The position numbers and the translations under genes are program-made. Below, piece by piece: positions 18,970-51,508 of a DNA stretch of 64,000 nt. Source of the stretch: Hyphomicrobiaceae bacterium (GTDB lineage Bacteria; Pseudomonadota; Alphaproteobacteria; Rhizobiales; Hyphomicrobiaceae); the NCBI GenBank assembly GCA_022842785.1, contig JALHOW010000011.1, forward strand, positions 1 through 64,000, read 5' to 3'. The notes beneath the pieces were generated by a model. The model saw only the letters and a list, made by a program, of their open reading frames with translations. It was not told the origin of the DNA and did no database searches. Position 1 is the first letter of the stretch, and the number at the start of each line of letters is the position of its first letter.

Positions 18970-21900
18970 ATGACTTCAATCGTTTCATCTCTGACCGTCA
19001 ATCAGATCAAGTCACTCTCCACGACGGCTATCGCCAATCTGACCACGGATGACATCAACGCGCTCAGTGCGACGCAGATCAAGGCGCTGAGCTCGGCTCA
19101 GATCGGCGCCCTCGAGACGCAGGATCTTCAGGCGTTCTCTTCCGAGCAGCTTAGCGCCGTATCGGCCAAGGCCCTCGCTGGCCTGACCGTCCCGCAGTTG
19201 CAGGCGCTCGGCACAGGCCAGATCGTAGGCCTCAGCGCTGCACAGGTTTCCGCGCTCTACTCCAGTCAGGTTGAAGCCCTCAATTCTTCGCAGGTGCAGG
19301 CGCTGACGAGCACCCAGATTGCGGCCCTTGGCGGAGCGGCCCTCGGCTCCATGACCACGGCGGAGCTGTCGACGTTCACGACGGACGAAGTTGCGGCCAT
19401 CAACGCCAAGGCCATCGCGTCCCTGACGACCGAGCAGGTTGCGTCGCTGTCGACCGATAAGATCGCCGCCCTCGGCGCGAAGCAGATCGCGGCGATGACG
19501 AGCGGCCAGATCTCCGCACTGACGACCAGTCAGGTCGCCGCGCTGACGACCGAGCAGATCGGCGCCTTGAATGCCAAGCAGATCTCCGCTTTGACGACCG
19601 GTCAAGTTGCGGCTCTCGGCACGGATCAGGTCGAGTCTCTGAATGCGAAGCAGATCGCGGCTCTCAGCAGTACGCAGGTCGAAGCTTTCACTTCAGCACA
19701 GGCGCAAGCTCTGACGAGCGCACAGATCGTTGCGATGAGCGCGGCGGCTCTCGCCACCATGACGACCGCGGAGCTGGCGACCTTCAGCACGGATGATGTC
19801 GCAGCGATCAATGCCAAGGCCATTGCGGGCCTGACGACGGATCAAGTCGCGTCGCTGTCGACCGACAAGATCGCGGCGCTTGGTGCGAAGCAGGTTGCGG
19901 CAATGACGAGCAGCCAGGTCGCCGCGCTGACGACCACTCAGGTCGCGGCGATGACGACCGATCAGATCGGTGCGCTGTCGGCCAAGCAGCTTGCAAGTCT
20001 GACAACCGGTCAGGTGGCGGCGCTTACAACCGATCAAGTGGCGGCGCTGGCCGCGAAGCAGATCTCGGCCCTCAGCAGCACGCAGGTAGAGGCATTCTCC
20101 TCGGCGCAGGCGCAGGCACTGAGCAGTACGCAGATTGCCGCTCTGAGCGCGGGCGGTCTCGCCAGCATGACGACCGCAGAGTTGGATACGTTTACCAGCG
20201 ATGAGGTCGCGGCAATCAATGCGAAGGCCATCGCCGCCCTGACGACAGAGCAGGTCGCGTCGCTCGACACCGACAAGGTCGCAGCGCTGGGCGTCAAGCA
20301 GATCGCCGCGATGACGAGCAGCCAGGTGGCTGCGCTCACGACCGGTCAGATTGCTGCACTGACGACCGAGCAGATCGGCGCCCTCAACGCCAAGCAGCTG
20401 GCGGCAATGTCGACAGAGCAGGTTGCGGCGCTGACCACTGGTCAGGTCGAGGCGCTGGCGGCGAAGCAGATCACGGCGCTCAGCAGTGCCCAGGTCCAGG
20501 CGCTCTCATCGACGCAGGCGCAGGCGCTCACCAGCACGCAGATCGCGGCCATGAGCGGGGCGGCACTCGCCACGATGACGACCGCGGAGCTCGGTGCGTT
20601 CACCACGGATGAGATCGCAGCCATCAATGCCAAGGCCGTCGCGACATTGACGACCGAGCAGATCTCATCGCTCACCACCGACCGGGTGGCCGCACTCGGC
20701 GCCAAGCAGGTTGCGGCTTTGACGAGCGGCCAGATCGCGGCGCTGTCGACCGGTCAGGTGCAAGCGCTCACGACTGATCAGATTGCAGCCCTGACGCCGA
20801 AGCAACTTGCGTCCCTGACAACCGATCAGGTAGCAGCACTCACGACGGGGCAGATCGGAGCCCTTAATGCGAAGCAGGTGGTAGGCTTCACCAGTACGCA
20901 GGTCCAGGCGCTTTCATCCACTCAGGCTGAAGCGTTGACCGGATCGCAGATCGCGGCCATGAGCGGGGCGGCACTCGCCACGATGACGACCGCGGAACTT
21001 GGCACGTTCACGACCGATGAGATCGCGGCGATCAATGTCAAAGCCGTTGCCGGTCTCACGACCGAGCAGGTTGCTTCGCTGACGACCGACAAGGTCGCAG
21101 CGATGACGGCCAAGCAGATTGCGGCTATGACGAGCGCACAGATCGCAGCGCTGTCGACCGGTCAGGTTGCGGCGATGACGACCGACCAACTCGGCGCGTT
21201 GACCGCCAAACAACTTATCGCCATGACGACAGACCAGGTCGGGGCGCTCACTACGACCCAGGTCGGAGCACTGCTCGCGAAGCAGATCTCCGCGCTGAGC
21301 AGCAGTCAGGTCGAGGCGTTCTCGTCTGCACAGGCGCAGGCGCTGAACAGCACCCAGATCATGGCCTTGGGCGCGGCGGCTCTCTCTACCATGACGACCG
21401 CGGAACTCGCGACGTTCACGACGGATGAGATCGCGGCAATCAATGTCAAAGCCGTTGCTGGCCTGACGACCGGTCAAGTCGCATCGCTCGCAACCGACAA
21501 GGTCGCGGCCCTCGGTGACAAGCAGATCGCGGCGATGACCAGTGGTCAGATCGGGGCGTTGACGACCGGTCAGTTGGCTGTGTTGTCGAGCACGCAGCTC
21601 GGTGCGCTCACCGCGAAGCACCTTGCCGCGCTGACAACCGATCACATGGCGGCTCTCACGACGGATCAGGTTGCAGCGCTTGGTGCCAAGCAGATCTCTG
21701 CGCTGACCTCTGATCAGATCGCGGCGCTGGATTCCACTCAGGTCGCGGCGCTGACGAGCACACAGATCGCGGCCTTGAGTGCGGCGGCCATCGAGGCGAT
21801 GGAGTCGGACGAGATCGCGACCTTCACGACGGATGAGATCGCCGCCATCAGCGTCAAGGCTTTGGCGGGCCTCTCGACCGACGACATCGCAGCGCTTGGT

Positions 21901-21993
21901 ACCGGCCAGCTGCAGGCCTTCACCGAGAAGCAAATTCAGTCCATGAGTTCTGGTCAGATCGAGGCGGTGCTCGCCGCATACAACGCAGTGTGA
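18970..21993 (+). CDS. Octapeptide-repeat Thr/Ser-rich protein (125 tandem octads)
   Basis: Family not recognised. The 1007-residue product is 125 gapless octapeptides plus seven residues (LAAYNAV). The consensus is T-T-x-Q-[VI]-x-A-L, with Thr or Ser at positions 1-2 in most units, a near-constant Gln 4, a branched residue at 5 and Leu 8. A second order repeats every 17 octads (136 residues): a unit with TTAEL, then TTDE, then INxKA recurs with its leading Met at residues 128, 264, 400, 536, 672 and 808, and a diverged copy at 944. There is no Cys or Trp, almost no Arg and no signal peptide or membrane segment. GAAGGG precedes ATG 18970. A GT41 glycosyltransferase gene follows on the same strand. 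A long solenoid- or rod-like structural or surface protein is inferred. Confidence 0.8.
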   Translation: MTSIVSSLTVNQIKSLSTTAIANLTTDDINALSATQIKALSSAQIGALETQDLQAFSSEQLSAVSAKALAGLTVPQLQALGTGQIVGLSAAQVSALYSSQVEALNSSQVQALTSTQIAALGGAALGSMTTAELSTFTTDEVAAINAKAIASLTTEQVASLSTDKIAALGAKQIAAMTSGQISALTTSQVAALTTEQIGALNAKQISALTTGQVAALGTDQVESLNAKQIAALSSTQVEAFTSAQAQALTSAQIVAMSAAALATMTTAELATFSTDDVAAINAKAIAGLTTDQVASLSTDKIAALGAKQVAAMTSSQVAALTTTQVAAMTTDQIGALSAKQLASLTTGQVAALTTDQVAALAAKQISALSSTQVEAFSSAQAQALSSTQIAALSAGGLASMTTAELDTFTSDEVAAINAKAIAALTTEQVASLDTDKVAALGVKQIAAMTSSQVAALTTGQIAALTTEQIGALNAKQLAAMSTEQVAALTTGQVEALAAKQITALSSAQVQALSSTQAQALTSTQIAAMSGAALATMTTAELGAFTTDEIAAINAKAVATLTTEQISSLTTDRVAALGAKQVAALTSGQIAALSTGQVQALTTDQIAALTPKQLASLTTDQVAALTTGQIGALNAKQVVGFTSTQVQALSSTQAEALTGSQIAAMSGAALATMTTAELGTFTTDEIAAINVKAVAGLTTEQVASLTTDKVAAMTAKQIAAMTSAQIAALSTGQVAAMTTDQLGALTAKQLIAMTTDQVGALTTTQVGALLAKQISALSSSQVEAFSSAQAQALNSTQIMALGAAALSTMTTAELATFTTDEIAAINVKAVAGLTTGQVASLATDKVAALGDKQIAAMTSGQIGALTTGQLAVLSSTQLGALTAKHLAALTTDHMAALTTDQVAALGAKQISALTSDQIAALDSTQVAALTSTQIAALSAAAIEAMESDEIATFTTDEIAAISVKALAGLSTDDIAALGTGQLQAFTEKQIQSMSSGQIEAVLAAYNAV
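19351..21798 (+). repeat. Six 408-bp direct repeats inside the octapeptide gene
   Basis: The ATGACNACNGC marker starts at 19351, 19759, 20167, 20575, 20983 and 21391, spaced exactly 408 bases each time; a diverged copy starts at 21799. No indel occurs in six periods. The copies starting near 20533 and 20941 share an identical stretch of about 50 bases, indicating recent duplication or gene conversion. Confidence 0.9.
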
Positions 21994-21998
21994 TGATG

Positions 21999-22024
21999 TG
22001 CAGCGCGGTTGCCACCGCGCTGCA
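21999..22024 (+). terminator. Stem-loop after the octapeptide gene, weak terminator or attenuator
   Basis: A perfect 10-bp stem TGCAGCGCGG/CCGCGCTGCA with a TTGCCA loop lies 5 bases after the stop. It is followed by TCTCCCG rather than a clean T-run, so partial read-through into the glycosyltransferase gene is plausible. Confidence 0.5.
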
Positions 22025-22188
22025 TCTCCCGTTCTCTAGTCGCCTGCACCGCGAGGTGCGGGCGATAATGCGTTTTACGGCCCGAGGCAAAAGATAAGCC
22101 CGACGCAAGCCAGCACTGATAGCCCGAAGATGGCCATTTTGCCGTCGTCGTAGGCCTCGCTGTCAGGCTGATTTGCCGTGGGACGCTC

Positions 22189-24237
22189 GTGACACTCAAC
22201 AAACCCATTTCCCCTGAGCAGGCCAATCCGCTCGCGGGCATTCTCGAGCGGGCCCGGCGCCAGCAATTGTCCCTTGGCGAGTTGGTCCAGATGGCGGAAA
22301 GCCTCAATGGCGCTGGACTTCAGGCGGTCGCCGTCGATCTCTACAAGACGTGGATTGCTTTCAATGATGGCAATCCGCTGCTGCACCTCGCCTGTTTCAA
22401 CTATTCCGTTGCCGCCCGGCAGATCGGCGATATCGCCGGCTCGATTCAGGCGCTGCGCCACAGCCTCAAGCTCAATCCGCAGTTCGGCCCGGCGCACATC
22501 AATCTCGGCCGCGCATTGGAAGAGAGTGGCCTTGTCAGCGAAGCCGTCGAGCAGTGGCGCAACTACGCCAATGCGAGTGCTGACATCACGGCGGACCGGA
22601 TCAGCCATCGCCTCATAACGCTCCAGCAGATGGGACGCGTTCTCGAGGGCGCAGGCTTGCTCGAGGAGGCAGAAGCTGCGCTATGGCAGGCCATCGAGCT
22701 GCAGCCGGAGAAGCTGGAGGCAGGTCAGCACTGGTCGTCATTGCGGCAGCGACAGTGCAAGTGGCCCATTCTCACAGAGACAGCTCACGTGTCGTCGCGC
22801 CAGATGCTGGATGCGATGTCATCCATGTCTGCAGCCTGCTATACCGACGATCCGCTGTTTCTACTCGCGAAGGCCTATCGCTACAACAAGTCCGCGGTGG
22901 GCCGCGTCGAGCGCGGCAACATTCCGCGGGCCGGCGTACGCCACAAGTCGGGAACAGGGCAGCGCCTCCGAGTTGGATACGTTTCCTCGGACCTGCGGGA
23001 GCACGCCGTCGGCTTTGCTCTTTGCGAGGCGCTCGAACTACATGACAAGAGCAGCGTCGAGATTTTCGCCTACTACACCGGCGAACCGCGCTCTAACGAT
23101 GTGACGCACACACGCATCAAGAATGCTGCCGACTGCTGGCGTGATGTCACCGCGCTCTCGGATGCGGCCGCGGCCGCGCAGATCGCTGCTGACGAGATCG
23201 ACGTCCTCGTCGATCTCAACGGCTACACCAAGCAAGCGAGACCGAAGATCTTCGCGTATCGCCCTGCGCCGGTCATCGCCAATTTCTGCGGCTTTCCGGG
23301 CTCGATGGGGAGCCCGTTTCATCAGTACATGATTGCCGATGATTGGATCGCGCCGCCAGAGAACGACATCTACTATTCGGAGAAGGTGCTGCGGCTTGCC
23401 TGCTATCTTCCTTGCGATCGCAAGCAGCAGATCCCGCCGGTTCCGACCCGCGCAGATGCTGGATTGCCGGAGGACGCCTTCGTTTATGCCTGCCTCAGCG
23501 GCATGCAGAAGATCACCGCGAACTGCTTCGCGCGTTTCATGGCGATCCTTACGGCAACGCCGGGAAGCGTGCTTTGGCTACGCACCGGAAGCGAGGCTGC
23601 CAATCAGCGCTTGCGCCAGGTGGCCGCACAGAGTGGAATTGCGCCTGAGCGTCTGATCTTTGCGCCAGCGGTCGCCGGGCATCCGAACCATATCGCGCGC
23701 ATGGGCGCAGCGGATCTCTTCCTCGATACCTTCCCCTATGGTGCGCACGCGACTGCTACTGATGCGCTCACCGCAGGATTGCCCGTGCTGACCGTTCCAG
23801 GAAAGAGCTTTGCCACGCGTGTCTGCGCGAGCATCGTTGCGGCTGCGGGGACGCCGGAGTTGATCTGCAGCGGGCCGGACGAGTACATCGCGCGAGCCAT
23901 CGCCTTCGCACAGAAACGCCAGGAACTCACGGCGATGAGAGCATCTTTGCAGCGTCAGCTCGATGCGAGCGTGCTGCACGATACGCCTGCCTTCGTGCGC
24001 CGCCTGGAGCAGTTGTTCTGGCAGATGCAGGAGGAAGCCGAGCGCGGCGAAACTCCGGTCCCCGACCTGAGCAATCTTGATCTCTACTATGAGATCGGTG
24101 CGAAGTTCGTTCTGGAGAACGTCGAGTTCGAGGACGACGGCGCTTACCGCCGGCGCTATCGCGGGGCTCTCGCCGAGTTGAACGACTATTCCCCACTCGC
24201 GCGCGATGCCCGCTTGTGGACGGAGCCGACCGCTTAG
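22189..24237 (+). CDS. GT41 O-GlcNAc transferase-like protein with TPR domain
   Basis: Predicted cytoplasmic glycosyltransferase that adds a sugar (GlcNAc in characterised family members) to Ser/Thr of proteins, 682 residues. The first 200 residues are TPR-like helices (SIQALRHSLKLNPQFGPAHI, AHINLGRALEESGLVSEAVE). The catalytic GT41 half has VGYVSSDLREHAVGF with the conserved active-site His, VDLNGYTKQARPKIFAYRPA, FCGFPGSMGSPFHQYMIADD, and the UDP-binding DTFPYGAHATATDALTAGLP with GKSFATRVCASIV. The start is GTG 22189. It lies 195 bases after the Thr/Ser-rich octapeptide gene on the same strand, which suggests that protein as acceptor. Confidence 0.88.
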   Translation: MTLNKPISPEQANPLAGILERARRQQLSLGELVQMAESLNGAGLQAVAVDLYKTWIAFNDGNPLLHLACFNYSVAARQIGDIAGSIQALRHSLKLNPQFGPAHINLGRALEESGLVSEAVEQWRNYANASADITADRISHRLITLQQMGRVLEGAGLLEEAEAALWQAIELQPEKLEAGQHWSSLRQRQCKWPILTETAHVSSRQMLDAMSSMSAACYTDDPLFLLAKAYRYNKSAVGRVERGNIPRAGVRHKSGTGQRLRVGYVSSDLREHAVGFALCEALELHDKSSVEIFAYYTGEPRSNDVTHTRIKNAADCWRDVTALSDAAAAAQIAADEIDVLVDLNGYTKQARPKIFAYRPAPVIANFCGFPGSMGSPFHQYMIADDWIAPPENDIYYSEKVLRLACYLPCDRKQQIPPVPTRADAGLPEDAFVYACLSGMQKITANCFARFMAILTATPGSVLWLRTGSEAANQRLRQVAAQSGIAPERLIFAPAVAGHPNHIARMGAADLFLDTFPYGAHATATDALTAGLPVLTVPGKSFATRVCASIVAAAGTPELICSGPDEYIARAIAFAQKRQELTAMRASLQRQLDASVLHDTPAFVRRLEQLFWQMQEEAERGETPVPDLSNLDLYYEIGAKFVLENVEFEDDGAYRRRYRGALAELNDYSPLARDARLWTEPTA

Positions 24238-24398
24238 GCGGCTCGGGCCGTGCGGGCGCCGACAATCCGCTTCAGGGCTCTGTGCGAGGGACTTTCAGGG
24301 GTAACCCCGATAGGTCGGCGCTCTCGTAGGTGCGAGCATTTTTCCCGATGCAATAGGCGCAGCGCGCGTCGTTTTCGGCGCGTGATCGGGAGGTGCTC

Positions 24399-25385
24399 GT
24401 GGCGGTCGTCGACGTTCCAGAGGCTCGCCGGCTGGCGCGGGTGAATGGTCATATCCCCGACATGGTCCGGATCACCGGCGGTACGTTCCGCATGGGATCC
24501 GACAAGCACTACCCCGAAGAAGCACCGTCGCATCGTGTCACGGTGGAAAGCTTCTGGATCGATCGCACACCGGTGACCAACCGCCAGTTCCGCGACTTTG
24601 TGAACGCGACGGGGCACGTCACGTTCGCCGAACTCGCACCCAAGGCGGAGGACTATCCTGGCGCGCTGCCCCACATGCTGAAGGCCGGCTCGCTGGTCTT
24701 CTCACCGCCGAAGCATCGTGTCAGCCTTCTGGACTGGAGCCAGTGGTGGCAGTTCAAGTTCGGCGCAAGCTGGCGTCGCCCCTATGGCCCACGCTCGTCG
24801 ATCAGTGGTCTCGATGCGCATCCGGTTGTGCATGTCGCGTACGCCGATGCGAAAGCCTATGCGCAGTGGGCCGGCAAGGAACTGCCGACCGAGGCCGAGT
24901 GGGAATTCGCCGCGCGTGGTGGTCTCGACGAGGCGGAGTTCGCCTGGGGCGACGAACTCATGCCCGGAGGCCGTACGATGGCGAACACGTGGCAGGGGCA
25001 GTTCCCGCACGAGAACATCGCCAGCGACGGCTATGCGCGCACGTCACCCGTCACGGCATTCCCGCCGAACGGCTACGACATCCACGACATGATCGGCAAT
25101 GTCTGGGAGTGGACCGCCGACTGGTGGTCCGAACGGCACACTGCCGATGCGCCGAAGGCGTGCTGCATTCCGGCGAATCCGCGCGGCGGGCCACAGTCGG
25201 CAAGCTACGACCCGTGCCAGCCGGACATCAAAATTCCGCGCAAGGTGCTCAAGGGCGGATCTCATCTTTGCGCGCCCAACTATTGCCGACGCTATCGGCC
25301 GGCCGCGCGCCATGCCGAGCCAGTCGATACATCGACGAGCCATGTCGGGTTCCGCTGCGTTGTGCGCGAACAAGCGGAAGCATGA
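24399..25385 (+). CDS. Formylglycine-generating enzyme (sulfatase-modifying factor)
   Basis: Oxidises the active-site Cys of sulfatases to formylglycine, 328 residues. It has the SUMF1 fold: MVRITGGTFRMGSD at the start, LPTEAEWEFAARGG, DMIGNVWEWTADWW and the C-terminal KGGSHLCAPNYCRRYRPAAR then HVGFRC. The two catalytic cysteines are spaced C-x4-C as in human SUMF1, so it should be a true enzyme and not an EgtB-type relative. GTG 24399 is preferred because GGGAGG lies 5 nt upstream. The sulfatase it presumably matures is encoded at 25985. Confidence 0.92.
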   Translation: MAVVDVPEARRLARVNGHIPDMVRITGGTFRMGSDKHYPEEAPSHRVTVESFWIDRTPVTNRQFRDFVNATGHVTFAELAPKAEDYPGALPHMLKAGSLVFSPPKHRVSLLDWSQWWQFKFGASWRRPYGPRSSISGLDAHPVVHVAYADAKAYAQWAGKELPTEAEWEFAARGGLDEAEFAWGDELMPGGRTMANTWQGQFPHENIASDGYARTSPVTAFPPNGYDIHDMIGNVWEWTADWWSERHTADAPKACCIPANPRGGPQSASYDPCQPDIKIPRKVLKGGSHLCAPNYCRRYRPAARHAEPVDTSTSHVGFRCVVREQAEA

Positions 25386-25403
25386 AGCCATGGAACCGCA
25401 GAC

Positions 25404-25919
25404 ATGAGCGACGCCGCGAGCTCCAAGAGTGCAGAGATCCTGGCCTGGATCGCCGTCGCGCTGCTCGTCGTGTTGAGCCTCTGGGGCTTTCTCAAGCACG
25501 GCCTTTCACTCGACGCGCAAAAACGCTTGTGGCGCGACGTCGCGGAGCGCCCCGGTGGCCCGATGACGTTCCGCTTCATCCTGCAACCGACCATGGCCTT
25601 CCTCGCGGCGCTTCATGACGGCATCAAGGATGCCCGCACGGGACGCCCGCTCTATTCCTGGTCGCTGCTTACCAAACGAGAGGGACGCGCTGAGCGCCTT
25701 CACGAAGGTTTTCTAGCAACCGCGCGTATCATCCTACTGGGGCTCGGTATGGACGCGATCTATCAGGTCAAGGTGTTCAACACCTTCTATCCGGGCGAGA
25801 TGGTCGTCGTCGCACTGCTTCTCGCCTTCCTCCCCTATGTGCTGCTGCGCGGACCGATATCGCGTATCGCGCGTCGCTGGTTCGCACGTCAGCATTCGAC
25901 ACCGACAACAGGAGGATGA
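25404..25919 (+). CDS. Membrane protein of unknown function between FGE and sulfatase genes
   Basis: Not recognised. The 171-residue product has three or four hydrophobic segments: about residues 11-30, 55-72, 103-120 and 130-150 (GEMVVVALLLAFLPYVLLRG). Both ends are charged. It starts 18 bases after the FGE gene and ends 65 bases before the sulfatase gene, so it is probably co-transcribed. A role in membrane anchoring or transport linked to sulfate-ester use is only a guess. Confidence 0.7.
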   Translation: MSDAASSKSAEILAWIAVALLVVLSLWGFLKHGLSLDAQKRLWRDVAERPGGPMTFRFILQPTMAFLAALHDGIKDARTGRPLYSWSLLTKREGRAERLHEGFLATARIILLGLGMDAIYQVKVFNTFYPGEMVVVALLLAFLPYVLLRGPISRIARRWFARQHSTPTTGG

Positions 25920-25984
25920 TTCTGCCTGAAGGCGCGATCGTCAGCGCGATCTATCACGAGAGTAGTGTGTAAAGGAGTACATCA

Positions 25985-27529
25985 ATGGCGAAGCCAGCTA
26001 AGCCGAACATTCTTGTCATCTGGGGCGACGATATCGGGCAGTCGAATCTCAGTTGCTATACGCACGGGCTCATGGGCTATCAGACGCCCAACATCGACCG
26101 GATCGCGAAAGAGGGCATGCTCTTTACCGACTCGTACGGCGAGCAGTCCTGCACAGCCGGCCGCTCCTCCTTCATCACGGGACAAAGCGTTTACCGCACC
26201 GGCCTGTCCAAAGTCGGCATCCCTGCTGCTCCGGTTGGCATGTCGGACAAGCTCGTCACGATCGCCGCGCTGCTCAAGGAACAGGGTTACGCAACTGGGC
26301 AGTTCGGCAAGAATCACCTTGGCGATCTCAATCCCATGTTGCCGACCAATCACGGCTTCGATGAGTTCTTCGGCAACCTGTATCACCTCAATGCCGAGGA
26401 AGAGCCGGAGATGTATGACTACCCGCCGGAGAAGGATTTCCCCGAGTTTAAGAAGAATTTTGGCCCACGCGGCGTCATCCATTCATGGGCGACGGACAAG
26501 GATGATACGACCGTCATGGAACGGTGGGGCAAGGTCGGCAAGCAGAAGATCGAGGACACCGGTCCGCTTAACCGCAAGCGCATGGAAACATGCGACGACG
26601 AGTTCATTGCTGCAGCAACGGACTTCATCAAGCGCCAGAACAAGGACGGCAATCCCTTCTTCGTGTGGCTCAACACGACGCACATGCATTTCATCACACA
26701 TACGAAGAAGTCGAGCCTAGGTCAGGCGGGGCGCTGGCAGTCGCCTTACCACGACACTATGATCGATCATGACAAGAACGTGGGGCAGATGCTCGATTTG
26801 CTCGACGAGCTTGGCATCGCCGACGACACGCTTGTGGTCTACTCGACGGACAATGGTCCGCATCGCAACTCATGGCCCGATGGTGGCATGACGCCCTTCC
26901 GCAGCGAGAAGAACACGAATTGGGAAGGCGCTTTCCGCGTGCCTCAGCTCGCGCGCTGGCCCGGAAAGATCAAGCCTGGAACAGTTGCTAACGGTATCGT
27001 GCAGCATCACGATTGGCTGCCGACATTCATGGCAGCAGCAGGCGCCACCGATGTCGTGGACAAGCTCAAGAAGGGCTACAAGGCGATCGGCCGCACCTAC
27101 AAGAATCACATCGATGGTGTGAACCTGCTTCCTTATCTGACAGGCGAAGTGAAGGAGAGCCCGCGCCCTGCCTTCTTCTATTTCAGCGACGACGGCGATG
27201 TGCTTGGCATTCGCTATGATAACTGGAAGATCATCTTCATGGAGCAGCGGCTCCCAGGCACTATGGGTGTTTGGGCAGAACCTTTCGTTCACCTGCGTCT
27301 GCCGAAGATCATCAATCTAAGGACAGACCCGTACGAGTTTGCACCCATAACGTCCAACTCGTACTGGGACTGGATGATCCACCACGCGTACCTGATCTAC
27401 GCGGGGCAGGCGTTGATGGCGAAGTTCGTCGAGACCTTCAAAGATTTCCCGCCTGTACAGCGGCCGAACACCTTCACGGTCGACGACGCGATGAGGAAGA
27501 TGACGGAGGCCGCTGCAAGCGGCGATTGA
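25985..27529 (+). CDS. Arylsulfatase (type I, formylglycine-dependent)
   Basis: Hydrolyses sulfate esters, 514 residues. The formylglycine signature is CTAGRSS with Cys56 as the modified residue; GDDIGQSN holds the metal-binding Asp pair, and VYSTDNGPHRNSW the second metal site. No signal peptide is visible, so it is probably cytoplasmic, or exported after folding by an unseen route. GGAG lies upstream of ATG 25985. The FGE gene two positions upstream supplies the maturation enzyme. The substrate is unknown. Confidence 0.93.
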   Translation: MAKPAKPNILVIWGDDIGQSNLSCYTHGLMGYQTPNIDRIAKEGMLFTDSYGEQSCTAGRSSFITGQSVYRTGLSKVGIPAAPVGMSDKLVTIAALLKEQGYATGQFGKNHLGDLNPMLPTNHGFDEFFGNLYHLNAEEEPEMYDYPPEKDFPEFKKNFGPRGVIHSWATDKDDTTVMERWGKVGKQKIEDTGPLNRKRMETCDDEFIAAATDFIKRQNKDGNPFFVWLNTTHMHFITHTKKSSLGQAGRWQSPYHDTMIDHDKNVGQMLDLLDELGIADDTLVVYSTDNGPHRNSWPDGGMTPFRSEKNTNWEGAFRVPQLARWPGKIKPGTVANGIVQHHDWLPTFMAAAGATDVVDKLKKGYKAIGRTYKNHIDGVNLLPYLTGEVKESPRPAFFYFSDDGDVLGIRYDNWKIIFMEQRLPGTMGVWAEPFVHLRLPKIINLRTDPYEFAPITSNSYWDWMIHHAYLIYAGQALMAKFVETFKDFPPVQRPNTFTVDDAMRKMTEAAASGD

Positions 27530-48335: not shown

Positions 48336-48425
48336 TGGCGGAGAGAGTGGGATTCGAACCCACGGTACGCTTTCACGTACACACGCGTTCCAGGCGTGCG
48401 CCTTAAACCACTCGGCCATCTCTCC
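48336..48425 (-). tRNA. tRNA-Ser (anticodon GGA)
   Basis: The reverse strand folds as a class II tRNA of 90 bases including an encoded CCA. The acceptor stem is GGAGAGA/TCTCTCC with discriminator G, the D-arm is GCCGAGTGGTTTAAGGC and the anticodon arm is CACGC-CTGGAAC-GCGTG, giving anticodon GGA. A long variable arm (GTACG...CGTAC) and T-arm GTGGGTTCGAATCCCAC complete it. Confidence 0.97.
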
Positions 48426-51193: not shown

Positions 51194-51234
51194 CGAACTG
51201 TCTTACTTCTGGTGGTGCAGGGCTGCGGGGTGCG

Positions 51235-51263
51235 TTAGGGCCATACGACCCGGGGGCCTATAA
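51235..51263 (+). promoter_or_regulatory. Candidate promoter of the structured RNA
   Basis: CTATAA (51258-51263) makes a good -10 box. TTAGGG (51235-51240) is a weak -35 at a spacing of 17. It lies about 10 bases upstream of the structured RNA region. Confidence 0.4.
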
Positions 51264-51269
51264 GATCCG

Positions 51270-51508
51270 CTAGGGTGCTGTCCCTGACCGGAGCCGTGGT
51301 TCCGGATACACGGTGCCCACCTACATCATTGTAGGGACCACGCGGGTTCGTCCGCCGCAACGGCTTTCGCGGCTCTGCATGTTTCTTTCTTACCGCGGGC
51401 TTCTGGGAAGAGGTGCTTTCGCCTTCCGCTGTGGTGCTATGCCCGCGGTGGCCATGCCGACAGCGATCGGGATTTCAGTGTCCCTCCCCGCGAACGGGGA
51501 GGGTTTTG
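51270..51508 (+). ncRNA. Structured non-coding RNA, possible 6S RNA (SsrS)
   Basis: This non-protein region has its own -10 box and a strong terminator. It folds extensively: the ends can pair (GCTGTC 51277 with GACAGC 51459). CACGG hairpins and CCTACA-TCAT-TGTAGG (51320-51335) follow. A perfect 9-bp stem ACCGCGGGC/GCCCGCGGT (51392-51400, 51441-51449) encloses a GGAAG...CTTCC arm. The 5' GTCCCTGA and the long imperfect-rod layout resemble 6S RNA, which sequesters sigma-70 RNA polymerase. The identity is tentative; that it is a structured RNA is better supported. Confidence 0.55.

Follow-up and report, generated by a model that had tools for sequence, protein, structure and literature searches.

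Background

HMW1C is a glycosyltransferase related to family GT41. It is reported to be a cytoplasmic enzyme that modifies one dedicated large exoprotein, the HMW1 adhesin, at many sites (PMC3012730). FlmG of Caulobacter crescentus combines TPRs with a glycosyltransferase and is reported to put pseudaminic acid on flagellins (PMC7591256). The window analysed here, a stretch of 64,000 nucleotides from a Hyphomicrobiaceae bacterium, carries a gene for a large protein built of octapeptide (octad) repeats, with a GT41 gene downstream of it.

The octad gene and its product

18970..21993, + strand: octad (ALTTAQ) repeat gene, supported by PF20080 and the AF2 model; predicted glycosylation substrate
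18970..19137, + strand: N-terminal octads, M(T)SI.SSLT..QI..LSTTAI.., common to the starts of many octad proteins with or without GT41
19291..21788, + strand: higher-order array of a 408-nt (17-octad) unit in about 6 copies, found by Tandem Repeats Finder and also visible by eye
21796..21990, + strand: C-terminal octads, ..AFTT.QI.AMS..Q..A.., resembling the ends of many relatives

The open reading frame at 18970-21993 (+) encodes 1007 amino acids, which one fixed phase divides into an uninterrupted series of 125 complete octads, as the sequence-only reading had described. The commonest residues give the consensus A-L-T-T-(D/K)-Q-(I/V)-A, with Q at the Q position in 83/125 octads; the two 'TT' positions are occupied by Ser/Thr in 92/125 and 85/125. 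The protein contains 97 Ser, 143 Thr and one Arg, while Cys and Trp do not occur. Tandem Repeats Finder added a super-repeat on which the earlier reading was silent, with a unit of 408 nt (17 octads, 136 aa) present in 6.1 copies (score 2157). The match to PF20080 (ALTTAQ) has an E-value of 7.3e-198 and 640.4 bits against a curated cut-off of 26.4 bits, and covers 43 stretches. The host genome contains one match to the octad protein, and an NCBIfam search gave no name for it.

The structure prediction suggested in the sequence-only reading was run on residues 1-312 with AlphaFold (AF2). It gave a confident model of one short helix per octad (pLDDT 93.8), which rules out a disordered low-complexity protein. 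A known natural fold was not recovered, as Foldseek returned weak matches only, to mesothelin (E 6e-5, TM ~0.3) and to uncultured phage proteins (E 2e-7, TM ~0.2). By sequence, HeliScrew4 (PDB 9zem), whose name suggests a design, matches the octad protein with an E-value of 1.7e-19; it was absent among the listed fold-search matches. A viral or phage origin was rejected: no relative was present among viral contigs, and a search of phages yielded two weak hits, each to Mycobacterium phage Squirty, at 25% identity.

The GT41 gene and the intergenic region

22189..24237, + strand: TPR-GT41 glycosyltransferase, GTG start, 682 aa, PF13844; predicted modifier of the octad protein
22387..22716, + strand: TPR region, residues about 67-176
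22960..24018, + strand: GT41 catalytic region, residues about 258-610
21994..22068, + strand: two strong hairpins, terminator- or attenuator-like, one of them at 22039-22066

The assignment of the next gene on the same strand to a GT41 enzyme with a TPR domain was borne out by PF13844 (E 2.1e-66, 224.7 bits, cut-off 25) and by TPR_2 and TPR_8, both above cut-off. The host genome likewise contains one match to this GT41. Its solved relatives include human OGT and XcOGT, the closest being O-GlcNAc transferases. The gene starts 195 nt downstream of the octad gene. The minimum free energy of the 75 nt at 21994..22068 is -48.6 kcal/mol, and since the hairpins lie between the two genes, separate control of the octad gene and the GT41 is suggested.

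The GT41s linked to octad genes form one clade (37 rows from 35 loci versus 23 other GT41s; SH-aLRT 99, 0/500 shuffles) in quick trees made without bootstrap, and support stays at 99 after addition of 23 rows from outside the order. Residues H272, K441, R504, D513, D525 and R544, which presumably have the catalytic roles they have in OGT, are identical in all 37 linked rows. H501 and H520 are kept in 31 of these, the window enzyme included, and the six rows without both make up one subclade. Twelve conserved residues specific to the clade are located at 52-193.

Recurrence of the pair

The lack of an adjacent GT41 gene in relatives, named in the sequence-only reading as evidence that would count against it, was looked for, and within this order the pairing withstood the check. 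Among the genomes of the order with at least 11 PF20080 matches, a GT41 adjoins the octad array in 23/25; for genomes with any match the figure is 23/33, with 0/8 where only 1-5 matches occur. The 36 pair loci were collected through PF20080, PF13844 and window-GT41 searches. A more independent reverse check of 397 genomes of the order, with two GT41 candidates scored per genome, found that all 15 GT41s of the window subtype adjoin an octad gene; these score 506-1551 bits to the window GT41, the next best 333. For 34 pairs the layout could be described: the GT41 lies downstream on the same strand in 26, upstream on the same strand in three, upstream on the opposite strand in four, and on the opposite strand at 8 kb in one. 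Because the layout varies, the link has outlived rearrangement; chance adjacency is ruled out by these layouts together with the 397-genome check.

On plasmids, a GT41 lies near an octad gene in at least 25 of 57, a figure taken from 60 listed records out of 98 GT41 plasmid records, 10 of the 25 being near-copies from Cereibacter sphaeroides. On plasmid b of C. sphaeroides MBTLJ-20 (record source 2.4.1), the octad gene, GT41, ABC and HlyD genes are consecutive, the pair being WP_011836188 and WP_011836189 in that record; in the C. sphaeroides 2.4.1 record NZ_CP030273, octad gene and GT41 are ~1 kb apart. The pair also occurs outside the order, in genomes G789 and G808 (the latter with ABC, HlyD and TolC), and outside the class as well. 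In 5 of the 13 f90/f115 genomes, genes for octad giants and GT41s are no more than ~20 kb apart, and the parts read of the contigs of the other eight contained no octad gene. At 14 lower-scoring GT41 loci, no octads were found within 1.5 kb (0/14). Genes of unannotated loci were called by our own ORF picking. The pairing of octad gene and GT41 is real and is repeated across many relatives.

Octad proteins do not always come with a GT41. Eleven complete octad loci lack a GT41 (L035, L043, L047-L050, L115, L129-L132; Shinella, Agrobacterium and others), so the octad fold does not need the enzyme. Four further octad loci without GT41 (L037, L038, L106, L111) reach contig ends and were left out of this count; L106 and the array at L105 are possibly two ends of one array. 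A scan of genome contigs with the octad protein as query gave four loci, all without GT41, and in genome G435 an octad array is present with no GT41 found in the genome.

GT41-linked octads are modestly enriched in Ser/Thr. At octad position 4 the Ser/Thr fraction is 0.67 in linked and 0.53 in unlinked proteins (36 versus 15, p = 0.007, kinship uncorrected), while position 5 shows no difference (0.52 versus 0.43, p = 0.32). The sum over positions 3-5 is 1.94 versus 1.71 (p = 0.013, all rows, kinship uncorrected). On a partial set of 32 linked and 9 unlinked proteins, which left out four linked and six octad-only loci, it was 1.97 versus 1.49 (p = 8e-5), an effect that shrinks with all rows. 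Within Rhizobiaceae, with L134 included, p = 0.054; the L134 protein is GT41-linked yet Ser/Thr-poor.

Sugar and secretion genes near the pairs

Across the 36 pair loci, the neighbours include UDP-xylose synthase (UXS) at 10, a type I secretion (T1SS) ABC gene at seven, UDP-galactopyranose mutase (Glf) at four and Ugd at three, by identity cut-offs that we set. None of these was present in 20 arbitrary windows or at the 11 complete octad-only loci; the pair loci are 10-64 kb long, and the arbitrary windows are 20 kb each, at round coordinates that we picked. UXS has one match in 21/25 genomes; even so, in 8/23 it is found no more than 5 kb from the pair, far beyond chance, and it directly adjoins the GT41 at L113, L135 and L136. 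Neither UXS nor Glf is seen at 22/36 pair loci, the window's included.

The proposed O-GlcNAc type with 203 Da per site had been drawn from the enzyme family; the sugar genes that recur at pairs would make UDP-xylose, UDP-galactofuranose or dTDP-rhamnose, and point to these donors. UDP-xylose as the donor everywhere is weakened, because Glf or rml genes occur in other lineages. On Rhizobiaceae plasmids, the subclade to which the window GT41 belongs is found with Glf instead of UXS. In the window genome (G000), UXS is on another contig than the pair and no Glf was found.

T1SS ABC genes were observed near 7/36 pairs and in G808. None was found beside the window's pair, and in the window genome an HlyB-type query recovered only ABC exporters at 30-33% identity, none of them clearly a dedicated secretion ABC protein. 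For the Pseudomonas octad protein, no secretion domain was named by either domain library; an EF-hand-like tail was read in it by eye.

Proposed mechanism and alternatives

The analysis shows that the pair exists and is conserved, that its GT41s form a clade and which genes surround it; from this we infer a reaction, its sites, a sugar and a route of export. The octad gene and the GT41 would be a dedicated substrate-enzyme pair, in which the enzyme attaches O-linked sugars to the octad protein while this is still in the cytoplasm, ahead of export; we give this a probability of roughly 70%. Weighing against it are the complete octad loci without GT41, the array in G435, the Ser/Thr difference that shrinks with all rows, the two His absent from one subclade, the intergenic hairpins, the weak exporter matches in the window genome, its UXS on another contig, the Glf-accompanied subclade of the window GT41 and the eight f90/f115 genomes with no octad gene in the parts read. 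The octad protein, probably a large exported one, is predicted to form a solenoid to which every octad contributes one short helix; the leading Ser/Thr of the octad would cap this helix, followed at the helix start by one or two more hydroxyls. The TPRs of the cytoplasmic GT41 would recognise the array, and the enzyme would modify the helix-start Ser/Thr prior to export, the expected sites being octad positions 3-5. At better-equipped loci the donor would come from co-encoded enzymes, most often as UDP-xylose, made by UDP-glucuronate decarboxylase, in some cases alongside Ugd; type I secretion may then release the product, which would serve as a large glycoprotein of the surface or matrix. The window would then represent the minimal pair only, with UXS encoded elsewhere in the genome. 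For the dedicated pair of the sequence-only reading, the adjacency held up in both directions of search; its O-GlcNAc part and a link in every octad locus found no support.

The donor is perhaps UDP-xylose rather than UDP-GlcNAc. Ordinary O-GlcNAc-type modification by the same pair, with the nearby sugar genes serving a surface polysaccharide, is rather unlikely. It would agree with the closest solved relatives and would need no extra gene, as at the many pair loci without UXS and Glf; UXS, Ugd and Glf at pairs versus none in arbitrary windows, and UXS abutting the GT41 at three loci, argue against it, as do other donors in the GT41 family, SPINDLY reportedly using fucose (PMC9715652). That the GT41 targets another protein such as flagellin, with the octad protein as co-regulated partner or as scaffold joining enzyme and target, is improbable. 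Flagellin genes do lie near the pair at L121 and L134 (a third, at L113, by eye), flagellar genes occur at L123, the octad neighbour at L134 is poor in Ser/Thr, and the TPR-containing FlmG is reported to act on flagellins in Caulobacter (PMC7591256). However, flagellin was matched at only 2/36 pair loci and not in the window, position 4 is somewhat richer in Ser/Thr in GT41-linked proteins, and the linked clade does not include the GT41 of L118 (in G355), which has two flagellin-like genes next to it. Similarly improbable is a merely structural or adhesive solenoid to which the GT41 is linked by common locus ancestry without acting on it. The octad proteins that exist without GT41 and the flanking genes common to some relatives (e.g. 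L103, L104, L109) would suit it, but the pair is met again in varied surroundings and orientations, also on plasmids and beyond the class, and every GT41 of this subtype found in the 397 genomes adjoins an octad gene.

Extended beyond the dedicated pair, our reading is tentative: giant helical-screw fibres (~400 to >6,000 residues), decorated at helix-start hydroxyls by a dedicated GT41 clade with UDP-xylose (or, by lineage, UDP-galactofuranose or dTDP-rhamnose) and then exported by type I secretion, might form a regularly spaced glycan display; this would be a system of protein glycosylation and export not described before in Pseudomonadota. A repeat family so far unexplained and generically named GT41 genes thereby become one testable system. 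If true, it would provide a natural polymer that presents acceptors at intervals of eight residues and a bacterial GT41 whose donor sugar may be a pentose, and the choice of a repetitive substrate by TPR-GT41 enzymes would gain a simple model.

Comparison with known systems

The sequence-only reading did not recognise the system as described. This agrees with the literature searched (subscription journals and preprints mostly outside its coverage), in which neither a description of an octad-GT41 system nor the name ALTTAQ was found; the repeat itself, however, is already a Pfam family, PF20080, for which the Pfam search gave no function or partner enzyme. HeliScrew4 has an octad sequence of the same pattern as the window protein, and we know of no enzyme partner for it.

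Human OGT, XcOGT and Thermobaculum OGT share the GT41 domain and the six conserved catalytic-region residues with the window enzyme. They modify many proteins, whereas the octad system would have one repetitive substrate, and at some pairs the nearby sugar genes suggest xylose, galactofuranose or rhamnose. FlmG is reported to be likewise cytoplasmic, its TPR half binding a dedicated exported substrate and its catalytic half transferring the sugar (PMC7591256); its substrate is flagellin, and a flagellin-side GT41 lies outside the linked clade in a tree without FlmG itself. As in HMW1C/HMW1, the enzyme of the window pair is encoded next to a large predicted substrate with many candidate sites, and the two genes are conserved together. 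HMW1C differs in its Asn-linked hexoses and two-partner secretion, and the HMW1C-like structure 3q3e matches the window GT41 with an E-value of 8.6e-5 only. The recurrence of the octad-GT41 pair suggests that a large, probably exported protein is glycosylated in a manner not described before.

The octad protein and the adjoining glycosyltransferase

The pair and the intervening region are arranged as follows:
18970-21993, plus strand, octad protein ORF of 1007 aa, 125 complete octads in a single unbroken phase
21994-22068, two strong hairpins between the octad gene and the GT41 gene
22189-24237, plus strand (as the octad gene), TPR-GT41 gene, 195 nt downstream of the octad gene

The sequence-only reading had described 125 gapless octads at 18970, followed on the same strand by a GT41 enzyme with TPRs, and both points were confirmed. 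The octad protein contains 240 Ser/Thr and neither Cys nor Trp, and carries a second repeat order, a 17-octad unit in about six copies. It is a member of Pfam PF20080 (ALTTAQ repeat, E 7.3e-198), a name not found in the literature searched. The sole strong PDB sequence match was HeliScrew4 (9zem, E 1.7e-19). The structure prediction proposed in the same reading was performed with AlphaFold2 on residues 1-312 aligned with four relatives from genome_contigs (mean pLDDT 93.8, pTM 0.84). The model contains 39 short helices, one per octad, in which positions 4-8 are predicted to form the helix and position 3, mostly Ser/Thr, its cap. Foldseek searches of the model against the PDB and against viral models revealed no convincing natural homologue.

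The intergenic hairpins suggest lower production of the GT41 than of the octad protein, its predicted substrate. At L040 and L041 strong hairpins likewise trail the octad gene; at L045 and L121 the hairpins 3' of it are accompanied by a T run. Genome search gave one match to the octad protein and one to the GT41 in the host genome. Downstream of the GT41, on its strand, 24393-27529 encodes an FGE-sulfatase-domain protein (formylglycine-generating-enzyme-like, E 1.7e-84) and a sulfatase (E 1.6e-49); at the same-genus loci L040 and L041 the ORF starts beside the pair look unlike these neighbours. Elsewhere the window carries a 6S RNA (51217-51379, RF00013, 62 bits) and a tRNA-Ser(GGA) (48336-48425, minus strand).

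Distribution of the pair

PF20080 was found in 11/103 family genomes and 25/397 genomes of the order, 33 distinct genomes together. The GT41 domain PF13844 was present in 48/103 family genomes and in 15 of 22 further order genomes, all 22 having octads. The adjacency check proposed from the sequence alone was carried out by reading the loci: of the 33 octad genomes, 23 have a GT41 adjoining the octad gene, and all 23 fall among the 25 with at least 11 octad matches (23/25). This count includes G386, whose locus is split by a contig end with the GT41 start still visible. Of the two unpaired genomes, G435 is without any GT41 and the array of G355 stops at a contig edge. In the eight genomes having 1-5 matches no GT41 adjoined the octad gene, and the same held for four octad loci from genome_contigs (two Agrobacterium, one Rhizobium, one Rhizobiaceae MAG); G001 and G005 carry additional octad genes without GT41 (L035, L043).

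For the reverse test the window's GT41 served as query against 397 genomes of the order, with two candidates scored in each. Fifteen genomes scored 506-1551 bits and the next best 333 bits; an octad gene adjoins the GT41 in all 15.

Among PLSDB records, 57 carry an octad protein and 98 a GT41. At least 25 of the 57 also have a GT41 within about 10 kb, a lower bound resting on the 60 of 98 GT41 records among the matches listed. These pairs occur in Rhizobium, Pseudorhizobium, Shinella, Pseudomonas, Rhodovastum, Niveispirillum, Pseudoroseomonas and Cereibacter, C. sphaeroides accounting for 10. The remaining 32 showed no GT41 nearby among the matches listed, and none was seen at the four loci read from Shinella, Thioclava, Sinorhizobium and Roseateles plasmids (L129-L132). 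The Roseateles record (L132, marked UNVERIFIED_ORG) may be mislabelled, since it has annotated neighbours in common with the Shinella locus L129, namely FAD-dependent oxidoreductases and ABC transporter genes. The Spiroplasma plasmid psAtri5 (L133, 9770-13222), a Mollicutes plasmid remote from the other matches, encodes an octad-like protein only distantly related to that of the window (27% identity).

Outside the order, 398 genomes of the phylum were searched and GT41 matches above 360 bits taken. In G789 and G808 an octad gene adjoins such a GT41, and in G808 TolC, HlyD and ABC genes follow the pair. Thirteen genomes of families f90 and f115 also exceeded 360 bits, with no octad gene within 1.5 kb of the GT41; the same distance gave 0/14 for loci of lower-scoring GT41s. 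Wider reading located giant octad proteins up to about 20 kb from a GT41-like ORF in 5/13: G534 (5375 aa in one ORF, continuing in the next), G579 (>6398 aa), G541 and G518 (2942 aa each) and G509 (at least 1844 aa, with adjoining ABC and HlyD genes). In G534 and G579, RmlA (by match), RmlC, D and B (by eye) and a fused multi-GT41 gene stand in a row, divergent from the giant; these two giants (L233, L234) have a differing, LADTQLDG-like octad. No giant was found in the contig stretches read from the other eight genomes, several on short contigs; in one of them, G641, ABC and HlyD genes adjoin the GT41.

The linked GT41 clade

In the GT41 tree, 37 octad-linked rows from 35 loci were split from 23 unlinked rows by one branch (SH-aLRT 99), none of 500 shuffles was as clustered, and the branch kept support 99 after 23 further rows were added. 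Six catalytic-region residues (H272, K441, R504, D513, D525, R544) are identical in 37/37 linked rows. H501 and H520 are present in 31/37, the six departures forming one subclade, and the 12 clade-specific residues all map to the TPRs or close to them (52-193). Plasmid loci L135 and L136 carry a tandem GT41 pair, one from each of the two octad-linked subclades, beside UXS and type I secretion genes. At L118 (G355) a GT41 of another clade lies directly beside two flagellin-like genes, a FlmG-like setting.

Layout was measured in 34 of 36 pair loci (L114 and L134 left out). The GT41 follows the octad gene in the same orientation at 26 loci (gap 7-303 bp) and precedes it in that orientation at three (250-4018 bp); at four it is encoded upstream on the opposite strand (228-5941 bp). 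In one it lies on the opposite strand at 8 kb, directly preceded by a second octad ORF.

Neighbouring genes

The 36 pair loci (23 genome, 13 plasmid) were queried for proteins like those in the first clusters. UDP-glucuronate decarboxylase (UXS) was found at 10, a type I secretion ABC protein at seven, UDP-galactopyranose mutase (Glf) at four (a fifth annotated farther off in L139) and UDP-glucose dehydrogenase (Ugd) at three; 18 loci were without any of UXS, Glf and ABC. None of the four was found in 20 arbitrarily placed 20-kb windows from these or related genomes, or in 11 complete octad-only loci, those without GT41. Outside the seven counted, ABC and HlyD genes also stand in G235, some 20 kb ahead of the array.

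The UXS of L113 matched human UXS1 at about 1e-123. UXS lies within 5 kb of the pair in 8/23 genome pairs, and this closeness is not chance, because UXS is usually matched once per genome (one match in 21/25 genomes, two in 2); the binomial value is about 1e-13 (p = 0.005, n = 22) for genomes that are not independent.

The fullest sets are L033, from the window's family (RmlA, octad gene, GT41, ABC, HlyD, UXS), and plasmids L135 and L136. A Pseudomonas plasmid octad protein near ABC, HlyD and TolC genes has by eye an EF-hand-like and adhesin-like tail, which none of the family models named. L180 (G358) and L181 (G298) are clusters of HlyB-like ABC, HlyD and UXS genes without an octad gene, the octad-GT41 pair lying elsewhere in the genome; they possibly represent an exporter acting in trans. 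The octad protein of L134 (6448-8598) is poor in Ser/Thr and rich in Lys and Asp; its gene is divergent from the adjoining GT41 and Glf genes, and flagellin genes lie to either side.

Serine and threonine content

An enzyme acting on the octads predicts that linked octad proteins are richer in exposed hydroxyls. Over all rows (36 linked vs 15 octad-only loci), Ser/Thr at the cap position 3 was 0.75 in both sets. Position 4 showed 0.67 vs 0.53 (p = 0.007, too small as the proteins are related) and position 5 showed 0.52 vs 0.43 (p = 0.32); the sum of positions 3-5 was 1.94 vs 1.71 (p = 0.013, likewise made too small by kinship). A smaller set (32 vs 9) gave a stronger difference, 1.97 vs 1.49 (p = 8e-5). 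Of the six octad-only loci that the full set adds, several may only seem unlinked, because the pair lies elsewhere in the genome or a contig end was reached. Within Rhizobiaceae alone, position 4 showed 0.68 vs 0.49 (7 vs 8, L134 included; p = 0.054, related proteins). The difference lends weak support to action of the enzyme on the octads.

Proposed function and comparison with known systems

The best supported explanation is that the TPR-GT41 would glycosylate the octad protein in the cytoplasm, ahead of export. Type I secretion is the likely export route at loci where its genes are linked. In the window's own genome, a HlyB-type query retrieved no ABC exporter closer than 30-33% identity. 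UXS is encoded on a separate contig, in the company of genes that by eye resemble polysaccharide genes, and Glf was not found.

The octad repeat family and the GT41 family are already known. The literature searched yielded no account of the pairing, of the clade formed by the linked enzymes or of an association with UXS, Glf and type I secretion. The pair is predicted to comprise a glycosyltransferase dedicated to an exported substrate of its own, and the novelty would be greater if the donor were a pentose or the fibre a new surface structure. By analogy, the TPR-GT41 would act on the octad protein before export as FlmG does in flagellin glycosylation (PMC7591256) and as HMW1C does in glycosylating HMW1 (PMC3012730).
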